Assembly: GCA_020718465.1 (NCBI GenBank)
Contig: DYRY01000010.1
Location: forward strand, 1 to 33,016
Length of the DNA: 33,016 nt
Source of the DNA: Anaeromyxobacter dehalogenans
Lineage (GTDB): Bacteria; UBP6; JAFGXH01
Direction of reading: 5' to 3'
Shown: piece after piece, positions 1,991 to 11,618 of the stretch
How positions within the stretch are numbered: the stretch's first letter is position 1
Layout: each line of letters begins with the position of its first letter
Made by a program: the position numbers and the translations under genes
The notes under the pieces: model-generated
Seen by the model: the letters and a program-made list of their open reading frames with translations, nothing else
What the model was told of the DNA's origin: nothing
Databases searched by the model: none

Positions 1991-3046
1991 ATGGCAAATG
2001 AACTAATTGGTCTGGATATTGGAAGTAGTTCAATAAAACTAGTTCGACTTAAACAGAACAATAAATTTACATCTTTAAAAAATTTTGCAATTGCACCCCT
2101 TCCACCAGAGGCAATTGTTGATGGTGCTTTGATGAATACATCTGCAATTACTGAGACTTTAGGGAATCTTCTCAAAAGTATGAAAATTAAGGCAGAGAAA
2201 GTTGCTCTTTCAATCTCTGGTCACTCTGTTTTTGTACGTTTTATTAGAACGAGTAATTATAGAGATGAGGAACTTGAAGAGCATATAAAATGGGATGCTG
2301 AATCGTATATTCCAGATGTTAATGATGTATATCTTGATTTTCATAAATTAACATCAATGCCAGATGCTTCAGGAGAGATTGAAGTTCTTTTGGTTGCAGC
2401 AAAAAGGAATATTATTGATGAGTATGACCAACTTGCAAAATCTGTTGGACTAAAACCAGCTATTGTGGATGTTGATGCTTTTGCAATTCAGAATACATAT
2501 GAGTATAACTATCCTGATAGATTTAAAAATGAGGTAGTTGCATTACTTAATATTGGTGCTGCAGTTACAACAATTAATATTGTTGATAAAGGTGTATCTA
2601 AATTTGTAAGAGATATGTCAAGTGGTGGCGCAGAGATAACAGCGGCTATATCACAGCATTATGGTCTTCCAGTTGAAGAGGCTGAAAATATTAAAATTGG
2701 TGTTTATGGAGGAAATTCTGACCTTGTTAACTCCAATGATCTTCATAGAATTTATGAAGAGGTTTCATATAGAATTGTTGGTGAGATTCTTCAAACTATT
2801 GACTATTTTAAAACAACAACTCCAGGAATTGAGTTAAATAGAATATATTTAACTGGAGGTGGTTCAAAAATTAATCTAATTCAAAAAAGATTAGAAGAGC
2901 AAGCTGGCGTTAGGGTTGAGGAGTTAAACCCTTTTAATAATATTAACATTGATCCAAGAGCTTTCAATATCGATTTTATTAGAGCCAACAGTTCTTTAGC
3001 AACTGTTGCGGTTGGTTTGGCTTTAAGAAAGGCGGATGACAAATGA
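1991..3046 (+). CDS. pilM: Type IV pilus assembly protein PilM (actin-like ATPase)
   Basis: N-terminal ELIGLDIGSSSIKLVRL; FIRTSNYRDEELEEHIKWDAESYIP; IYLTGGGSKI. First gene of a pilMNOPQ order. Confidence 0.95.
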   Translation: MANELIGLDIGSSSIKLVRLKQNNKFTSLKNFAIAPLPPEAIVDGALMNTSAITETLGNLLKSMKIKAEKVALSISGHSVFVRFIRTSNYRDEELEEHIKWDAESYIPDVNDVYLDFHKLTSMPDASGEIEVLLVAAKRNIIDEYDQLAKSVGLKPAIVDVDAFAIQNTYEYNYPDRFKNEVVALLNIGAAVTTINIVDKGVSKFVRDMSSGGAEITAAISQHYGLPVEEAENIKIGVYGGNSDLVNSNDLHRIYEEVSYRIVGEILQTIDYFKTTTPGIELNRIYLTGGGSKINLIQKRLEEQAGVRVEELNPFNNINIDPRAFNIDFIRANSSLATVAVGLALRKADDK

Positions 3047-3606
3047 TAAAATTAAATCTATTACCAATTAGGGAAGAACAGAAAAGGAATAAGCTTATTC
3101 AGCAATTTATCCTTTTTGTTGTTGTTATTATACTCATTTTTGCAACTAATATTGTTTTTTATCAATATCATAGTGATGCATTAGAGACACAACATGAGAT
3201 TGTTACAAAACTCCAAAAAGATATTGATAAATATAAAAATCTTTTGGGTGATTTAAAGAAAGAGAAAGATAAAAAAACTGAATTTTTACAAAGAATTGAT
3301 GCTATTAACTCACTAGAGGCTTTAAGACAAAATCTGTTAAGAGTTCTTGATGAGATGAATAAACAGATTCCTCATAAAACTTGGATAACTGAGTTAAAAA
3401 AACAGGGAGCACAGATTATTCTTAGCGGTGGAGCCTCATCATTTGAGGATGTATCAACATTTGCACACTCTCTTAAAGGTGAGTCGAAATATTTTAAAAA
3501 GGTGGACATTAAAAATGTTCGACTTGAAGAGTTGAAAGATAAAAATATAAATGTTGTTGGAACACCCCGTATAGTTTTATTTGAAATAGTGTGCACACTT
3601 CAGTAG
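3043..3606 (+). CDS. pilN: Type IV pilus assembly protein PilN
   Basis: N-terminal MIKLNLLPIRE followed by one TM helix and a coiled coil. ATGA overlap with pilM. Confidence 0.93.
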   Translation: MIKLNLLPIREEQKRNKLIQQFILFVVVIILIFATNIVFYQYHSDALETQHEIVTKLQKDIDKYKNLLGDLKKEKDKKTEFLQRIDAINSLEALRQNLLRVLDEMNKQIPHKTWITELKKQGAQIILSGGASSFEDVSTFAHSLKGESKYFKKVDIKNVRLEELKDKNINVVGTPRIVLFEIVCTLQ

Positions 3607-3618
3607 GTGGGGGCGATA

Positions 3619-4251
3619 ATGAATGAATTTTTAGACCAGTTTGGTGGATTAAAAGCCTCTGCAAAGGCTGGTATTCTTGTTGGAGTTGCAGTTTTTACAG
3701 CTGTTATAAACTATTTTCTTTTCTTTGCTCCTATTGAGGAGGAGTATATGTCTCTTTTAAATCAAAGAGCTACTGCAGAAGAGAAAAAAGTGGAGTATGA
3801 TGGATTAAGTCGTACTTTAGAGATGGATCGTCAAATCAATAAAGAGATTGATTTAATGCTCAATGAAAAAAAAGGGAGACTTCCTGATACAACAGAGTTA
3901 GAATCCATTATGAGAGAGTTACATAGAAGAGCAAGTGATTCAGGTGTTCGAATTGCCTCTTTTCTACCAAAATCAGAGATAATTAAGGAGTTGTATGTTG
4001 AACAACCAATATCACTTATATTAGAGGCCTCTTTTCATGACACACTTAATTTTTTGTATGGTGTAAGTCAAAATACAAGGATTATAAACATGGATGATAT
4101 TCTTATGGAGAGTCCAGAGTATCGAAATCAAAAAGTTATAATATCTTCAAAGCTTGATATTAAAGTTTATCGTTTTAGAAAAGATAGTGATAAGCTTCCT
4201 GAAGATAAAACAAAAAAACCGGCATCTGCTGGAAAATCAGGTAAAGAGTAG
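3619..4251 (+). CDS. pilO: Type IV pilus assembly protein PilO
   Basis: TM helix then a coiled coil and SDSGVRIASFLP; position after pilN. The ORF start at 3607 is a GTG inside the G-rich ribosome-binding stretch (GGTGGGGG); ATG 3619 (MNEFLDQFGG) is the likelier start. Confidence 0.88.
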   Translation: MNEFLDQFGGLKASAKAGILVGVAVFTAVINYFLFFAPIEEEYMSLLNQRATAEEKKVEYDGLSRTLEMDRQINKEIDLMLNEKKGRLPDTTELESIMRELHRRASDSGVRIASFLPKSEIIKELYVEQPISLILEASFHDTLNFLYGVSQNTRIINMDDILMESPEYRNQKVIISSKLDIKVYRFRKDSDKLPEDKTKKPASAGKSGKE

Positions 4252-4260
4252 GGGGAGAGG

Positions 4261-4812
4261 ATGAGATATTTGCCATTTTTACTTTTGCTATCTGTTTTTG
4301 CAGGATGTTTTCCAGAGTATCAATCTAATAAAGCATCAAGTATGCAAACAAATTTAGAGAAAGAGAGAGCAAAAATTATTGATGAGATTAAGAAAAAAAC
4401 AGAGATTATTAAAGAGGATTATATCTACTCTGTTATAAACAAGAGAGATCCTTTTCAGAATATTTTTATGAAAACAGGTATATCTAATTCTGATTCAATT
4501 GTTGATGAATCAATAAAACGACCTGGTGTTGAAAAAATAGGAAGAACACATGATTTGCAACGTTTTGATATTGATGAGCTTAAATTGACTGCTATCATTT
4601 ATGGAACTGCTGCAAGAAGAGCAATTTTAGTTGATCCAACAGGAAAAAGTCATATTGTAAAAGAGGGGCAATTTCTTGGGAAAAATTATGGAAAAATTGC
4701 TTCCATAAAAGCTGATAAGTTGATTGTAAATGAAGAGACTTATGATATAAGAAAAAGAAAACAGGTTAAAAACATTGTTGTGAGTTTAAATCCAAATGAA
4801 GAGATTGAATAA
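4261..4812 (+). CDS. pilP: Type IV pilus assembly lipoprotein PilP
   Basis: Lipoprotein signal (LLLLSVFAGC), INKRDPFQNIF, and LKLTAIIYGTAARRAILVDPTGKSHIVKEGQFLGKNYGKI, typical of PilP. Position between pilO and pilQ. Confidence 0.9.
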   Translation: MRYLPFLLLLSVFAGCFPEYQSNKASSMQTNLEKERAKIIDEIKKKTEIIKEDYIYSVINKRDPFQNIFMKTGISNSDSIVDESIKRPGVEKIGRTHDLQRFDIDELKLTAIIYGTAARRAILVDPTGKSHIVKEGQFLGKNYGKIASIKADKLIVNEETYDIRKRKQVKNIVVSLNPNEEIE

Positions 4813-4829: not shown

Positions 4830-7800
4830 ATGGGACACTTTAAATTAATACTCCTCGTGGTTGTTTTTTTTAGTGCAACAACTCTGTTCGCGGAGAGGAA
4901 CAAAATATCTAAAATATCGATTCAAGAATCGAAAGGAAAAGTGGATGTAAATGTTTTTGGAACACAAAAACCAACATTTACAATTTTTAAACTTAAGAAT
5001 CCTCTACGCCTTATTGTTGATATCTCAAATGCAGATATTAATGGTATTGAATCACCAATAGAGGTTAATAATGGAGTGATTAAACAGATTATTACATCAC
5101 AATTTGAAGATGATGTAAATGTAACAAGTCGTATTATGTTGTCTCTTAAAGAGGACTCTAAATACGTTGTAAAATCTGTTGGAAGTAGATTTGTATTGTC
5201 TTTGGAGAGTGAAGCATTCCAAGGTAATACGTCTATTGTAAAAAATAGTCTTGATGATGAGAGTTCTCAAGAAGATTTTTCTGAAAAAGAGCAACTTTTT
5301 GTTCAAAAAATGAAAGAGATTCAAACAGATCTAATTCAAAAACAGGAGGCTCTTTATAATCGTGAGATTGAACTTCAGAAAAAAGAGCGAGAACTTCAAT
5401 CTTTGAAAGGAGAGTTAATAAAAACAGCCTCTACTCTTGAGAGTAAAAAGGCTGAAAATGAGAAATTGGCAAAACTATTAGATGAAAAAACCTCTGTTTT
5501 GTCTGATAAAAATAGAACGATCTCAACTCTTGAGAAAGAGTTAAAAGATAACTCTATTGAGATACAGAAAAATCAATCTGATATTAATGCTTTGAATCAA
5601 CAACTTAAAAAGAGTAATCAAAGTATTACAGAAACATCTAAAATAAAAATTGCAATTCAAGAGCTCGAAAAACAGAAACAACAACTTTTTTTACAAAAAC
5701 AGGATGTTTCAAAAGAGATAACCCTTTTAGCAAAAGAGAAAGATAATCTTTTAAAAGAGCAAAAGATACTTGTGGCTAAATATGATGAACAAAAAAAAGA
5801 TTTTATCAATCTTTCTCAAAAATACTCAAAATTAGAGCAAGAAAATCAAAAGGCAAAAGATGAGTTTTCAAAAATCTCTTCTCAAAATGAGACATTAATT
5901 GTAGAGAATAGCAAACTCAAAAAACAACTCTCTGAAATAATTTCTCAAAATAATGAGTTGATGAAGGGAAAAACCTCAACAATTAAACTTGCAAAAGAGA
6001 ACAATCTTTTAAAAGAGCAATTGGAAAAATTAATTGAAAAAAATGAGGCTTTATCTAAACTATCAAGCGAGAGAACAAAAAAAGATGAAGATTTCTCAAA
6101 ACTTAATAGTGAGCTCAAAAAAGAGCTTACAAAATTGACAGAAAGAAATGAGGTTTTCAGAAAAGAGGCAGAGTTACAAAAACAGCTTCTCACAGAAAAA
6201 ACTGAAGCTCTAAAAAAAGAGACAGAAGAACAAAGAAAAGAGCTTTCTAAGAATAAAGCAGAGTTAGTAACTTTATCTGAAAAAAATAGTTCATCTCAAC
6301 TAAATGATCTGAAAGTTTTAAAATACAAAGATAAAATAGTTGTTGATATGGATATTGATAATTATGGTGGTGATTTTGAAGTTCTTGAACTTGCATCTCC
6401 AAAAAGATTAGTTGTTGAGTTACCAAATACAAAACTTAATAGCTCATTAACAAAAAAAACAGATGTATCAAAAGCTCTTTTAAAGACTATACGACTTGGA
6501 GAGGAGAACTCAAAATCAAGAGTTGTTTTTGATATCTCTGATGCAAATAGTATTCCACGTTATTTTGTTAAGAAAGAGAAAAATCTTCTTAAATTTACAA
6601 TGCTTTTAGAAGATGTTAAGCAATTTAAAAATATTCTTGATATAAAAATGGATTCAGATGAATCATACTCAACTATTAAAATATCTTTTGATGATGGTGT
6701 GAAATACTCTCTTATTAGAGATGATAATGATTTAGCTGTTGTGAAGTTTTATGGGGTTAAAACTCCTGAATCTCTTCAAAATACAATAGATCAAACTTCA
6801 AAGGATAGTATTGTAAAAATGATTTCACTATTTCAATCCTCTGATGACTCTATTCTTGCCATAAAATTGGAAAGAAAAGGGGAAAATGAACTATTTTTTG
6901 ATAAAGAAACAAACAGTCTTATTTGGAAGTTTAAAAATTTTAAAAAAGAGACACCTATTTTAGTTAAAAAAGAGGAAAATGTTAAATATCTTTTCTCTGA
7001 AACAGCTTCATATCAAGAGGATGGTGTTGATATTTCAAGTAAACAGTATCATGGTAAAAGAATATCAATAGATTTTAAAAATGCTGATATTCATGATGTG
7101 TTACAACTAATTGCAGATGTAAGCAAGGTTAATATAATAACTTCTGATGATGTGTCTGGAACTGTAACAATGAAATTAAGAAATGTTCAGTGGGATAAGG
7201 CACTTGATGTTATTTTGAAAACTAAATTTTTAGGAAAAGAGGTTCTTGGAAATATTATAAGAATAGCTCCACAAGAGATTTTAACAAAAGAGTATCAAGC
7301 TAAAGTTGATTTAATAAAAAAGAGAGAGGAGAATGTTCCTTTAGGAATTCGCTTAATTCCTGTTAACTATGCTCATGCAGATGAGCTTTTAGAGCAGATT
7401 AAGAGTTTACTCTCACCAAGAGGGAAAGTATCTGTGGATATTAGAACAAATGTTCTTATTGTTAAAGACACATTCCAAAAACTTGATGAGTCTGAGGCTT
7501 TGGTTAGAAATTTAGATACACAAACTCCACAAGTTCTTATTGAAGGACGTATTGTTGAAGCAGAGTCTAGTTTCTCAACAGAACAAGGTATTGAGTGGGG
7601 TGGTGGTGCAGAAACTAGTTCTAAATTTGGAACACAAACCGGATTGGTTTTCCCATCTTCAATGAAGTTAAATGGTGGTCTTGGTGGTACAAGTAATTGG
7701 ATAACAAATCTTCCTGCTGCTGGAGCATCATCAGGTGGTGGAGGATTAAATTTTTCTCTTGGTTCAATTAATGACTCAATGTCTTTAAACTTTAGAATTA

Positions 7801-8306
7801 CAGCAGCAGAGGCTCAAGGTATGTTGAAAATTGTTTCCTCACCAAGAATCTCAACTCTTGATAATAAAGAGGCAATTATTGAAACAGGTTTAAAACTTCC
7901 AATCATAACAATTAATGAACAGGGAACACCAACAACAAAACTTGTTGATGCAAAAATAAAATTAACAGTAAAACCACATGTAACATCTGATGGTTCTGTT
8001 ATTTTGAAGATGGAGTTGAAAAAAGAGGAACCAGATTTTAGCCGTAAAAACTCTTTGGGTGATCCTGCTATTATCTCAAAAAGTGCAACTACTGAGCTTT
8101 TAATAAAAGATGGACAAACTGCAGTAATTGGTGGGATGTATACTAAAAAAACATCAGATGATGAAAAAAGAGTTCCATTTTTTGGAAGTATACCTGTTCT
8201 TGGTTGGTTTTTTAAAAATACCCAACAGACAGATACACGTTCTGAACTACTTATTTTTATCACACCAAGAATTATTAACAAAGATAATGGCCTAATTAGT
8301 AAATAG
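4830..8306 (+). CDS. pilQ: Type IV pilus secretin PilQ with AMIN domains and a long coiled-coil insertion
   Basis: Signal peptide, AMIN-like domain (PLRLIVDISNADI), ~340 aa K/E/Q-rich coiled coil, second AMIN-like segment (PKRLVVELPNTKL), secretin N domain (ISIDFKNADIHDVLQLIADVSKVNIITSDDVSGTVTMKLRNVQWDKALDVIL), secretin core (PQVLIEGRIVEAE ... VPFFGSIPVLGWFFKNTQQTDTRSELLIFITPRII). Confidence 0.95.
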   Translation: MGHFKLILLVVVFFSATTLFAERNKISKISIQESKGKVDVNVFGTQKPTFTIFKLKNPLRLIVDISNADINGIESPIEVNNGVIKQIITSQFEDDVNVTSRIMLSLKEDSKYVVKSVGSRFVLSLESEAFQGNTSIVKNSLDDESSQEDFSEKEQLFVQKMKEIQTDLIQKQEALYNREIELQKKERELQSLKGELIKTASTLESKKAENEKLAKLLDEKTSVLSDKNRTISTLEKELKDNSIEIQKNQSDINALNQQLKKSNQSITETSKIKIAIQELEKQKQQLFLQKQDVSKEITLLAKEKDNLLKEQKILVAKYDEQKKDFINLSQKYSKLEQENQKAKDEFSKISSQNETLIVENSKLKKQLSEIISQNNELMKGKTSTIKLAKENNLLKEQLEKLIEKNEALSKLSSERTKKDEDFSKLNSELKKELTKLTERNEVFRKEAELQKQLLTEKTEALKKETEEQRKELSKNKAELVTLSEKNSSSQLNDLKVLKYKDKIVVDMDIDNYGGDFEVLELASPKRLVVELPNTKLNSSLTKKTDVSKALLKTIRLGEENSKSRVVFDISDANSIPRYFVKKEKNLLKFTMLLEDVKQFKNILDIKMDSDESYSTIKISFDDGVKYSLIRDDNDLAVVKFYGVKTPESLQNTIDQTSKDSIVKMISLFQSSDDSILAIKLERKGENELFFDKETNSLIWKFKNFKKETPILVKKEENVKYLFSETASYQEDGVDISSKQYHGKRISIDFKNADIHDVLQLIADVSKVNIITSDDVSGTVTMKLRNVQWDKALDVILKTKFLGKEVLGNIIRIAPQEILTKEYQAKVDLIKKREENVPLGIRLIPVNYAHADELLEQIKSLLSPRGKVSVDIRTNVLIVKDTFQKLDESEALVRNLDTQTPQVLIEGRIVEAESSFSTEQGIEWGGGAETSSKFGTQTGLVFPSSMKLNGGLGGTSNWITNLPAAGASSGGGGLNFSLGSINDSMSLNFRITAAEAQGMLKIVSSPRISTLDNKEAIIETGLKLPIITINEQGTPTTKLVDAKIKLTVKPHVTSDGSVILKMELKKEEPDFSRKNSLGDPAIISKSATTELLIKDGQTAVIGGMYTKKTSDDEKRVPFFGSIPVLGWFFKNTQQTDTRSELLIFITPRIINKDNGLISK

Positions 8307-8318
8307 GGAGGTGTCACA

Positions 8319-9005
8319 ATGAGAAATATAATCTTTTCACTAATATTAGCTCTATTTATGGTTGGCTGTGTTGATGATTTTTATGAACTTCATATATTAT
8401 ATGTTCCTGCTCCTAAATTAGAGGGAGAGGATTGTGAATATAAACTTGTGAAGGATGGAGATGTTGTATACTATCCAAATGGGATTATGGATATATCATC
8501 CTATAATCCTTATGATTTACAACTAATTATTGAGTCAACACTTCCAAGTAAAAAGGTGAATGAGATTGAGACAAATGATATAATTGTTGAGAAGGCAATT
8601 ATTGAAGTTTCTACTATAAAAAGAGGGGTAAAAAGAAGATTAACTGTTGCAGATGGTACTTACTATATTAATAATGTTATTCCTGTTAATAGTATTTGGA
8701 TGACATCATTCCCAATTTTTTTGGATACGAGAGTTACTGATAGTTTAAATAATCTAAATCCAGATCCTGAAATTGCAGAAGAGGGACAATATGATCCTAA
8801 TTTTAGGATAGTTATTAATGTTAAACTTGAAGGTCAAACAAAAGCTGGAGCCTCTGTTAAGTCAAATGAATTTGAATTTTCGATTTATGTTTGTTATGAT
8901 TGCTTTAATTTAGAGAAATACTCTTGTGGAGATGGTTTTACACCTGATCTTTATTGTGGTATGAGACAAGACCACTCACCTATTTGTGTTGAAGCCAAAG
9001 AATAG
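8319..9005 (+). CDS. Putative lipoprotein with Cys-rich C-terminus, function unknown
   Basis: Signal peptide with lipobox-like MVGC; C-terminal CYDCFNLEKYSCGDGFTPDLYCGMRQDHSPIC. 12 nt after pilQ. Confidence 0.75.
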   Translation: MRNIIFSLILALFMVGCVDDFYELHILYVPAPKLEGEDCEYKLVKDGDVVYYPNGIMDISSYNPYDLQLIIESTLPSKKVNEIETNDIIVEKAIIEVSTIKRGVKRRLTVADGTYYINNVIPVNSIWMTSFPIFLDTRVTDSLNNLNPDPEIAEEGQYDPNFRIVINVKLEGQTKAGASVKSNEFEFSIYVCYDCFNLEKYSCGDGFTPDLYCGMRQDHSPICVEAKE

Positions 9006-9016
9006 GAAATCTTCTA

Positions 9017-10762
9017 ATGAAAATACAGACACTAACACTAGCAAAACTTCAATTTAAACAGGGTCATCTTGATAAAGCTCAAGAGATTTTAGATGTTTTA
9101 GTGGAAACACCAGAGACAATAAAGTTAAGAGAACAAATCAATGAGGCTCTGTTTATTCAAAAGCTATCCTCATATACAGAGAGTATTAAAGAGAGAGCTC
9201 TATTTTTAAACAAAGCTTTAGCAAAAATAAAAGAGTCTAAACAGAGTTTTAAAAGTGATATTGAAAAAAAACACTCATTTAATGATCTCTATTTTGATTG
9301 TGATATCTCTCTTGAGAGAAAGTATAAACCGTCTCAAAAACTTCAACAGATTTATAATATGTTAGAGCAGTGTAGACGATTTGAGCCTAAAAAGAGAGAT
9401 AAAAGTGCAACTTTTGAAGATATATCTCTTAATTTATCTGTAGAGATTTCTTGGGGTTATATTTTTGAACACTCTGATGGTGAAAAAATTGAGGTAGATT
9501 CATCTGAAATTGCTGTTGTTGAGGAATCTAAAGAGGTTTTTGTCTCTGCAAAACCTCTATTAGAGCAACTTTTAGGGAATATATCTCAAAAAAGGGATAG
9601 AAAAATACAAAATATAGCATCTTTTGATGACATCTCAATTGATTTTACATTTGATATATCAAAAGTTTTTGAGGTTGATAAAAAATCTGATTTAACTGAT
9701 GAGACTATTTTTGTAACTGAAAGTAATAATTTGATTTTAGAAGAAACTACTGCTTTTGATTCTGAAGTTTTTACTAACAGTGTTTCTTTTGAACCACAAC
9801 AGAGTGAGAGTATAGCCTCTTTTTCAGAATTTGAATTAAATGAAACTCTATCAGATTTAACTGATTTATCAAATAAAATAGAGTCTGATATTGAAGATTC
9901 AGTTGAAAATGTTAATTTAAAGGTTGCAGATTGCTCTCATAATAAAATCATGTTTTTATCAAAACTTGCAGACTCTTTTTCAAAAAAAGATACTCAAATT
10001 TTTAAACCAAAATATTTGGCATCTTTTGATGACATCTCAATTGATTTTACACTTGATATATCAAAAGTTTTTGAGGTTGATAAAAAATCTGATTTAACTG
10101 ATGAGACTATTTTTGTAACTGAAAGTAATAATTTGATTTTAGAAGAAACTACTGCTTTTGATTCTGAAGTTTTTACTAACAGTGTTTCTTTTGAACCACA
10201 ACAGAGTGAGAGTATAGCCTCTTTTTCAGAATTTGAATTAAATGAAACTCTATCAGATTTAACTGATTTATCAAATAAAATAGAGTCTGATATTGAAGAT
10301 TCAGTTGAAAATGTTAATTTAAAGGTTGCAGATTGCTCTCATAATAAAATCATGTTTTTATCAAAACTTGCAGACTCTTTTTCAAAAAAAGATACTCAAA
10401 TTTTTAAACCAAAATATTTGGCATCTTTTGATGACATCTCAATTGATTTTACACTTGATATATCAAAAGTTTTTGAGGTTGATAAAAAATCTGAAGATTT
10501 ATTTTTAGATACCAAAACCACATCAAAAATTGATGAACTTCAGAATTTAATCAAGTTTATTCAAGAGGATAAAAAAAGGGAGAGAAAACATGGTGAAAAC
10601 CTATTTTCTGATATCTCATTGAGTATTGAATTAGAGGTTTCAAGAGAGTACTCTACCCCAATTATCTCTGTTAAGAGAAGCAGAATTGATAGAAAAATAG
10701 AGGTTTTAAACTCATTACTAAAAAAAATAGATGATTATAAACATCAGAAAGGGACAAAATGA
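9017..10762 (+). CDS. Repeat-containing protein: short N-terminal TPR-like helical region plus six FxDIS-type motifs in acidic linkers; function unknown
   Basis: Single open frame with 12-nt gap from the upstream gene and ATGA overlap with the downstream gene. N-terminus MKIQTLTLAKLQFKQGHLDKAQEILDVLVETPE looks TPR-like. Contains tandem 402-bp repeats. Confidence 0.85.
   Translation: MKIQTLTLAKLQFKQGHLDKAQEILDVLVETPETIKLREQINEALFIQKLSSYTESIKERALFLNKALAKIKESKQSFKSDIEKKHSFNDLYFDCDISLERKYKPSQKLQQIYNMLEQCRRFEPKKRDKSATFEDISLNLSVEISWGYIFEHSDGEKIEVDSSEIAVVEESKEVFVSAKPLLEQLLGNISQKRDRKIQNIASFDDISIDFTFDISKVFEVDKKSDLTDETIFVTESNNLILEETTAFDSEVFTNSVSFEPQQSESIASFSEFELNETLSDLTDLSNKIESDIEDSVENVNLKVADCSHNKIMFLSKLADSFSKKDTQIFKPKYLASFDDISIDFTLDISKVFEVDKKSDLTDETIFVTESNNLILEETTAFDSEVFTNSVSFEPQQSESIASFSEFELNETLSDLTDLSNKIESDIEDSVENVNLKVADCSHNKIMFLSKLADSFSKKDTQIFKPKYLASFDDISIDFTLDISKVFEVDKKSEDLFLDTKTTSKIDELQNLIKFIQEDKKRERKHGENLFSDISLSIELEVSREYSTPIISVKRSRIDRKIEVLNSLLKKIDDYKHQKGTK
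9617..10494 (+). repeat. In-frame tandem direct repeat, 402-bp unit: copy 1 9617-10018, copy 2 10019-10420, partial third copy 10421-10494
   Basis: Direct comparison: copies 1 and 2 differ at one noticed base (TTT Phe vs CTT Leu in FTFDIS/FTLDIS). The third copy matches for 74 bp and then diverges after GATAAAAAATCTGA. Confidence 0.97.
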
Positions 10763-11109
10763 TTTTTGAAAAATACTTCTCTGAGATATTCTCTGAATGC
10801 AGTGGCACAAAGGGAATTGCGATTATGGGTAAAGATGGGATTGCTGTTGAACAACAGTCATCAGACCAGTTTTTTGAGGAGCTTTTGATAGAGTTTTCCG
10901 ATGTTACAACAAAGGCTATCTCTATTTTTGACTCAAGAGGTGAACTGACTAAACAGCAGATTTTTTTAACAGAGAAAAATCTCCTTTTTGTTGAGAGTTT
11001 ATCAGATTACTACTCTTTATTTGTTTTAGCTGATAGCTCTGTTAATATTGGAAAACTCCGTTTTGTAGTTAGAAAAAAAGCACCATGGATAAAAAAAGAG
11101 CTTCAATAA
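10759..11109 (+). CDS. Roadblock/LC7 domain protein
   Basis: ~116 aa; GTKGIAIMGKDGIAVEQQSS ... NLLFVESLSDYYSLFVLADSSVNIGKLRFVVRK is the Roadblock/LC7 (MglB-like) pattern. Confidence 0.75.
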   Translation: MIFEKYFSEIFSECSGTKGIAIMGKDGIAVEQQSSDQFFEELLIEFSDVTTKAISIFDSRGELTKQQIFLTEKNLLFVESLSDYYSLFVLADSSVNIGKLRFVVRKKAPWIKKELQ

Positions 11110-11618
11110 TCCTTATAGAGGGACCTAATTTAAATTTAATAGATTTAAGACCAAAAATATATCAATCAAAAAACTCAAATAGTGAGATTTTTCAAAAAAT
11201 AGAGCAGTTTTTTGAGCTTATCTATTTTCAATCAAATTATGAAGGGGAGTTTGTTGATATTTTACAACTTATTGAAATTAATAATATTCAAAATATTTCA
11301 GAAAACTCTAATTTTTTAGAAAAAATAGATAAATCTGAAAAAATTTTAGGTTTTCTGAAAAAAATAGAGAAAAAAAATATTGCTGGAGTTATTATTAATC
11401 CAGCAGCATTAACACACTACTCAATAGCTCTTTCAGATGCTTTAGAGATTTTAACTCTTCCAAAAGTTGAAGTTCATCTTACCAATATTTATAAAAGAGA
11501 GGAGTTTCGACACAAATCAGTAACAGCTAAAAATGTTGACTTTGTTATATCTGGTGCTGGAAATTTTGGCTACTATCTTGCAGCAGAGTATATTTATAAT
11601 CTAATTCCAATATGTTAA
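11085..11618 (+). CDS. aroQ: Type II 3-dehydroquinate dehydratase, divergent
   Basis: GPNLNL, FQSNYEGEFVD, INPAALTHYSIALSDAL, VEVHLTNIYKREEFRHKS. Carries an extra segment between EGEFVD and INPAA. Overlaps the Roadblock gene by 25 nt. Confidence 0.88.
   Translation: MDKKRASIILIEGPNLNLIDLRPKIYQSKNSNSEIFQKIEQFFELIYFQSNYEGEFVDILQLIEINNIQNISENSNFLEKIDKSEKILGFLKKIEKKNIAGVIINPAALTHYSIALSDALEILTLPKVEVHLTNIYKREEFRHKSVTAKNVDFVISGAGNFGYYLAAEYIYNLIPIC

Follow-up and report, generated by a model that had tools for sequence, protein, structure and literature searches.

What does a 581-aa protein built from repeated short motifs do in a type IV pilus operon, in which its gene overlaps that of a Roadblock/LC7 protein? 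Both genes lie in the window, i.e. the whole stretch of 33,016 nucleotides of DNA that was analysed. The operon contains, in order and all on the forward (+) strand, pilM (1991-3046; above the cut-off for Pfam PilM and matching TIGR01175 pilM), pilN (3043-3606), pilO (3607-4251) and pilP (4261-4812), each above the cut-off of the Pfam family of its name, pilQ for the secretin (4830-8306; TIGR02515, 404.8 bits, residues 742-1150), a gene for a small lipoprotein-like protein (8319-9005), the motif-array gene (9017-10762), the Roadblock/LC7 gene (10759-11109) and an aroQ-like gene for a class II dehydroquinase (11085-11618; DHquinase_II, E 2.8e-36), which overlaps the Roadblock gene. The motif-array gene and the Roadblock gene share the stop and start sequence ATGA, and a search for a terminator-like site between pilQ and the Roadblock gene found none. 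The preliminary description of this DNA was thus correct in reporting the ATGA overlap and a unit that starts at pilM, and the products of pilM, pilN, pilO, pilP and pilQ match their families. The N-terminal half of PilQ contains a very long insert that resembles a coiled coil (approximately residues 140-520), and the aroQ-like product (177 aa) has an apparent internal insert, scores under the NCBI cut-offs and may be a divergent enzyme.

The genome of the window (G000) is a fragmented assembly that is 82% complete and consists of 259 contigs. Among 28 genomes of the phylum, a Roadblock gene of the window type is carried by only three, i.e. G000, a relative in the same genus (G001) and a relative in the same family (G002). 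The gene order pilMNOPQ - lipoprotein - motif protein - Roadblock - aroQ is shared by the three genomes known for the family, and the ATGA overlap is also present in G001. In these homologs the motif, its spacing and its linkage to pilQ and the Roadblock gene, as described for the window, recur. PilQ is of comparable length in G001 (1143 aa) and G002 (1105 aa). In two-sequence BLASTP comparisons, the lipoprotein of the window matched its counterpart in G002 (E 2e-7) as well as the lipoprotein encoded between pilQ and mglC in Citreicoccus (Myxococcaceae, L021; E 4e-5 over 37 residues).

The Roadblock protein had been likened to MglB; this likeness did not hold. In a phmmer search with the single protein from the window, the sole PDB match was MglC of Myxococcus xanthus (7CT3; E 1.1e-5, residues 2-115), and an MglC profile, which includes a member from the Myxococcaceae, matched it at 2.1e-41. 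Moreover, its AlphaFold model (pLDDT 92.9) had 7CT3 as the top match in Foldseek (E 9.5e-9). In M. xanthus MglC, K104/R106/R110 form the patch that binds RomR (PMC10329633), and alignments place K99, R101 and R105 of the window protein (codons 11053-11073, + strand) as their counterparts. At the positions of the MglB-binding residues F25/D26/I28, the window protein has K25/D26/I28, i.e. D26 and I28 are kept, while F25 varies across the family. The MglB model matched with an E value of 0.0039, which is far under its cut-off, and a separate mglB gene adjoins mglA elsewhere in G000 (G000:C4). Based on its sequence and predicted fold, we conclude that the Roadblock protein is of the MglC type and not MglB, and we consider this family assignment strong.

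Other components of the Mgl system are encoded in the same lineage. A gene for an SgmX-like TPR protein is present elsewhere in G000 (C165), and a RomR-like gene is present in G001 and was not located in the incomplete G000. The RomR-like protein (L238, G001:C370), in a frame of 727 aa, combines a receiver domain and a long acidic linker with the C-terminal helix VIEEIVWQVVPELAE; the M. xanthus RomR used as the query was recognised by the published residues E390, K391, W394 and E402 (PMC12719032), with an offset of one in the strain used. In M. xanthus, mglC (L122) is located downstream of pilQ, matching the position in the window, and an MglC-like gene was in reach at 35 of 80 PilQ loci, mostly downstream of pilQ.

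The motif-array protein begins with a TPR-like helical hairpin (9017-9166, + strand; MKIQTLTLAKLQFKQGHLDKAQEILDVL..), which TPR_19 matches at E 0.012, below the cut-off. This hairpin resembles the TxTMADLYxxQGHxxxAxxIY TPR of other MglC partners, is modelled by AlphaFold as confident helices and is absent in the G002 protein. It is followed on the same strand by six units, each with a helix and a strand motif: unit 1 (9191-9325) with the helix at 9191-9238 (ERALFLNKALAKIKES) and the strand at 9272-9325; unit 2 (9326-9460) with the helix at 9326-9373 (KPSQKLQQIYNMLEQC) and the strand at 9407-9460; unit 3 (9545-9670) with the helix at 9545-9592 (SAKPLLEQLLGNISQK) and the strand at 9617-9670; unit 4 (9941-10072) with the helix at 9941-9988 (NKIMFLSKLADSFSKK) and the strand at 10019-10072; unit 5 (10343-10474), a duplicate of unit 4, with the helix at 10343-10390 and the strand at 10421-10474; and unit 6 (10523-10651) with the helix at 10523-10570 (SKIDELQNLIKFIQED) and the strand at 10598-10651. 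The FxDIS strand begins 9-18 residues after each internal helix. The protein ends in a further helix (10691-10738; RKIEVLNSLLKKIDDY), which corresponds to the helix at the C-terminus of TPR-type MglC partners.

All six 18-residue motifs that had been reported translate exactly at their coordinates; however, the motif copies at 9617, 10019 and 10421 fall inside a 402-bp tandem duplication (9617-10494, + strand, 2.2 copies). Positions 9617-10018 and 10019-10420 differ in one base, and 10421-10494 is identical. Therefore, the copies at 10019 and 10421 stem either from a single recent event or from faulty assembly, and approximately five motif copies rather than six are independent. In an assembly as fragmented as this one, the duplication could be genuine or artefactual.

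The versions of the protein in G001 (477 aa) and G002 (274 aa) have five and four units, respectively. With a strand profile made from the four distinct copies in the window, all five copies in G001 scored better than each of 1000 shuffles, while G002 had one clear copy (p=0.001) and three weaker ones. A 45-position model of the whole unit matched six units in G000, five in G001 and three in G002 with E values of 1e-14 to 1e-19, matches that are by construction as the model was built from those same units; it matched no other protein of G000, G001 or G002 at E below 0.002. Between the window and G001, identity was 84% in the helices and 69% in the strands versus 53% in the linkers, which also had 53 gapped positions. 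The amphipathic helix with its K/R end is, thus, the more conserved half of the unit; the preliminary description had mentioned a K/R-rich amphipathic helix before several motif copies only in passing.

In an AlphaFold model of the motif-array protein, based on an alignment of three sequences, the mean pLDDT was 36. The model has confident N-terminal helices as well as separate helices of low confidence at residues 107-119, 179-196, 501-522 and 554-578, and is otherwise unfolded. Such a model is what would be expected of a docking array; it agrees with an unfolded chain better than with a solenoid packed on itself, but a shallow alignment also lowers the confidence. Several other assignments were considered and rejected. 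Pfam matches to DUF4634, Staygreen, LRIM1 and LRR_4 were below the cut-off and taken as chance, as was a DNA match of the motif region to G000:C247, which is antisense to a PEGA-type protein. The protein is not RomR, as it has no receiver domain and the RomR C-terminus, with its helix EKIAWEVVPxLAE, does not fit the helix profile described below, and it is not SgmX, as an SgmX-like query found G000:C165 and not the gene in the window.

Does MglC have comparable neighbours in other lineages? In 389 genomes sampled across the domain, MglC-type genes were present in 63. At 30 of 44 loci outside the window lineage, from 23 families, a TPR gene is located directly upstream of mglC, a fraction that is not a census because loci were picked by MglC score and availability. 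These gene pairs often overlap. The typical partner consists of TPR repeats that a disordered-looking linker joins to a single C-terminal helix, and many partners end in an amphipathic helix of the form KxxxLxxWLxxIxxxK/R. At three loci (L167, L168, L172), a TPR protein with its own C-terminal Roadblock domain is encoded directly upstream of a second Roadblock protein, MglC. At L020, the TPR-MglC pair has no adjacent pil gene, and its neighbours are pepP, accB and accC. The TPR partner is not universal, because in L019 and L021 a lipoprotein-like gene takes its place immediately before mglC. The locus counts exclude G357, G124 and G245, which were rejected as MglC fusions and are acyl-CoA synthetase-like proteins that end in a Roadblock domain, as well as long reading frames of G344, G231 and G308, which are probably open-frame noise. 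As separate observations, L177, L178 and L179 encode acyl-CoA synthetase-like proteins (~780-800 aa) whose C-terminal domain is an MglC-like Roadblock, and an MglC-like Roadblock gene is directly preceded by a gene for a J-domain and TPR protein at L186, L193 and L194, and by a recR-like gene at L195 and L196. In a literature search with most subscription journals outside its reach, we found no description of a TPR protein encoded beside mglC. The array and its Roadblock gene had been proposed as an undescribed pilus-operon module; the linkage is kept, but the module is a local form of a widespread TPR-MglC pair that is sometimes located away from pil genes.

The C-terminal helices of these partners resemble the helices of the array. 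A profile of 22 C-terminal helices from partners in other lineages had the C-terminal helix as its top match in the proteins of the window and G001 and as its second best match in the G002 protein (shuffle p 0.001, 0.004 and 0.014, respectively). In the window, this helix has L at the W position of the consensus KxxxLxxWLxxIxxxK. Taken jointly, the helices upstream of the strand motifs also matched the profile better than shuffles (p below 0.001 for the window, 0.009 for G001 and below 0.001 for G002, in which one best helix is 29 residues from the strand), while most internal helices taken singly were not significant, i.e. they support the match as a group. In a reverse test, eight internal helices alone were made into a profile, which had its best match at most 30 residues from the C-terminal end in 15 of 24 other partners, where 2.2 are expected; none of 300 column-permuted profiles reached 15 of 24. 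The helices of both profiles were hand-picked and hand-aligned, which can favour the fit; the reverse test guards against this, as it searched entire partner sequences and permuted the columns. The set of 24 partners contains a few close relatives. Helix matches in L260 and L261, which are TPR proteins with signal peptides, were judged to be chance.

From these comparisons, the protein of the window appears to carry the partner-type C-terminal helix approximately six extra times. The FxDIS strand is confined to the window lineage and was not found in other TPR partners; it was therefore rejected as the ancestral element. The helix that precedes each motif is the older element shared with the partners, and the strand is a lineage-specific addition. 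The RomR C-terminal helix was also rejected as a match (p=0.39 with the helix profile) and, because of this dissimilarity, the docking site is not simply transferable from RomR.

In M. xanthus, RomR recruits MglC by its own C-terminal helix, which MglC binds (PMC10329633, PMC12719032). Because the repeated segments look like a multiplied partner helix, the motif protein may be a many-handed holder of MglC. Specifically, we consider it fairly probable that the 581-aa protein is the version of the widespread TPR partner in this lineage and a multivalent MglC-binding scaffold, largely disordered, at a locus for pili and polarity. In its evolution, the TPR part would have shrunk to one N-terminal hairpin, which is missing altogether in G002, while the helix would have been copied to form 4-6 units in a row, with the extended segment FxDISLxLxLEIS after each and a last helix at the C-terminal end. 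Each helix, together with its strand, would dock on an MglC dimer; one chain could thereby bring several MglC dimers together close to the type IV pilus machine and reach the MglB/MglA polarity switch by way of MglC, acting in parallel with RomR. The earlier suggestion that the motifs are multivalent docking sites for the Roadblock protein is, thus, retained for the array as the best current reading, with the emphasis shifted from the FxDIS strand to the preceding helix. The gene order, the family assignments, the likeness of the helices in both directions and the kept MglC patch are observations; we infer the direct docking on MglC, the valency and the role in pilus polarity, the last because of the operon position and the known role of MglC; the RomR precedent supports the kind of interaction and not its details, because the helices are dissimilar in sequence. 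More tentatively, and with greater doubt, MglC might have a second, old and widespread ligand, i.e. a TPR protein that docks on the MglC dimer with its C-terminal helix, in which case the array of this uncultured lineage could cluster many MglC dimers at the base of the pilus and serve as a polar hub, either in place of the input from RomR or to amplify it.

Alternatively, the array could scaffold a pilus component, e.g. cytoplasmic PilM or a PilB/PilT ATPase, with the MglC gene merely co-transcribed. In favour of this, the operon begins at pilM, has short or overlapping junctions and keeps its order in three genomes; however, the pair at L020 lacks pil genes and some TPR partners bear their own Roadblock domain, suggesting that conservation of the partner tracks MglC rather than the Pil proteins, and we regard this explanation as unlikely. 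It also seems improbable to us that the TPR or array protein and MglC act in a process unrelated to pili, such as the polarity of another machine or metabolism, at which the aroQ, pepP and accBC neighbours would hint, and that the linkage to pilus genes is ancestral hitch-hiking. While MglC genes of other lineages frequently have pepP, efp, accB, accC and aro genes next to them, the MglC of M. xanthus takes part in the polarity of both motility systems (PMC10329633), the gene is located at the pilQ locus in the window, G060, G041 and the Myxococcaceae, and mglBA and sgmX-like genes are present in the genome of the window.

Finally, the repeats might be a by-product of slippage and duplication in low-complexity A+T-rich DNA and have no docking function. 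The motif gene has a GC content of 28%, its 402-bp duplication is recent and its structural model is of low confidence, all of which would fit; but the helices and strands are better conserved than the many-gapped linkers, units are found again in another genus and the helices resemble those of a family independent of this one. This explanation is disfavoured, and we judge it very improbable.

How does the putative scaffold compare with known systems? The Roadblock protein resembles M. xanthus MglC (7CT3; PMC7949163, PMC10329633, PMC12719032) in sequence, fold, position downstream of pilQ and the K/R/R patch, and the mglBA genes in G000 and the RomR-like gene in the same genus are shared with the M. 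xanthus Mgl system. By contrast, mglC of the Myxococcaceae lacks a preceding TPR or array gene (L021 has a lipoprotein gene at this position), and RomR, the known helical ligand of M. xanthus MglC, has a C-terminus unlike the helix family of the window. SgmX, a protein with 14 TPRs in M. xanthus that binds MglA, and Bd2492 of Bdellovibrio are likewise TPR proteins tied to MglA-dependent control of type IV pili (PMC11580455, PMC3983030); however, SgmX-like proteins have long TPR arrays and are encoded separately, whereas the protein of the window has one TPR-like hairpin. The TPR partners of the 23 other families share with it the gene pair with MglC, a TPR-like segment of the LYxxQGHxxxAxxIY kind and, in most cases, the C-terminal amphipathic helix, but have one helix, a larger TPR region and no FxDIS, whereas the window lineage has a helix-strand array and little TPR. 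In eukaryotes, LAMTOR1 (p18) wraps Roadblock heterodimers in Ragulator, and the dynein intermediate chain pairs with a Roadblock light chain; here the likeness, an extended helical chain on Roadblock dimers, is in principle only, and we claim no sequence similarity.

How RomR, MglC, MglB and MglA choose the pole at which pili are formed is an active question that has been studied almost only in M. xanthus. The conserved TPR gene next to mglC in many families suggests that MglC has a partner that has so far escaped study, and singles out a short helix in it. The window lineage would represent a natural multivalent version of this partner, which could ease detection of the interaction.
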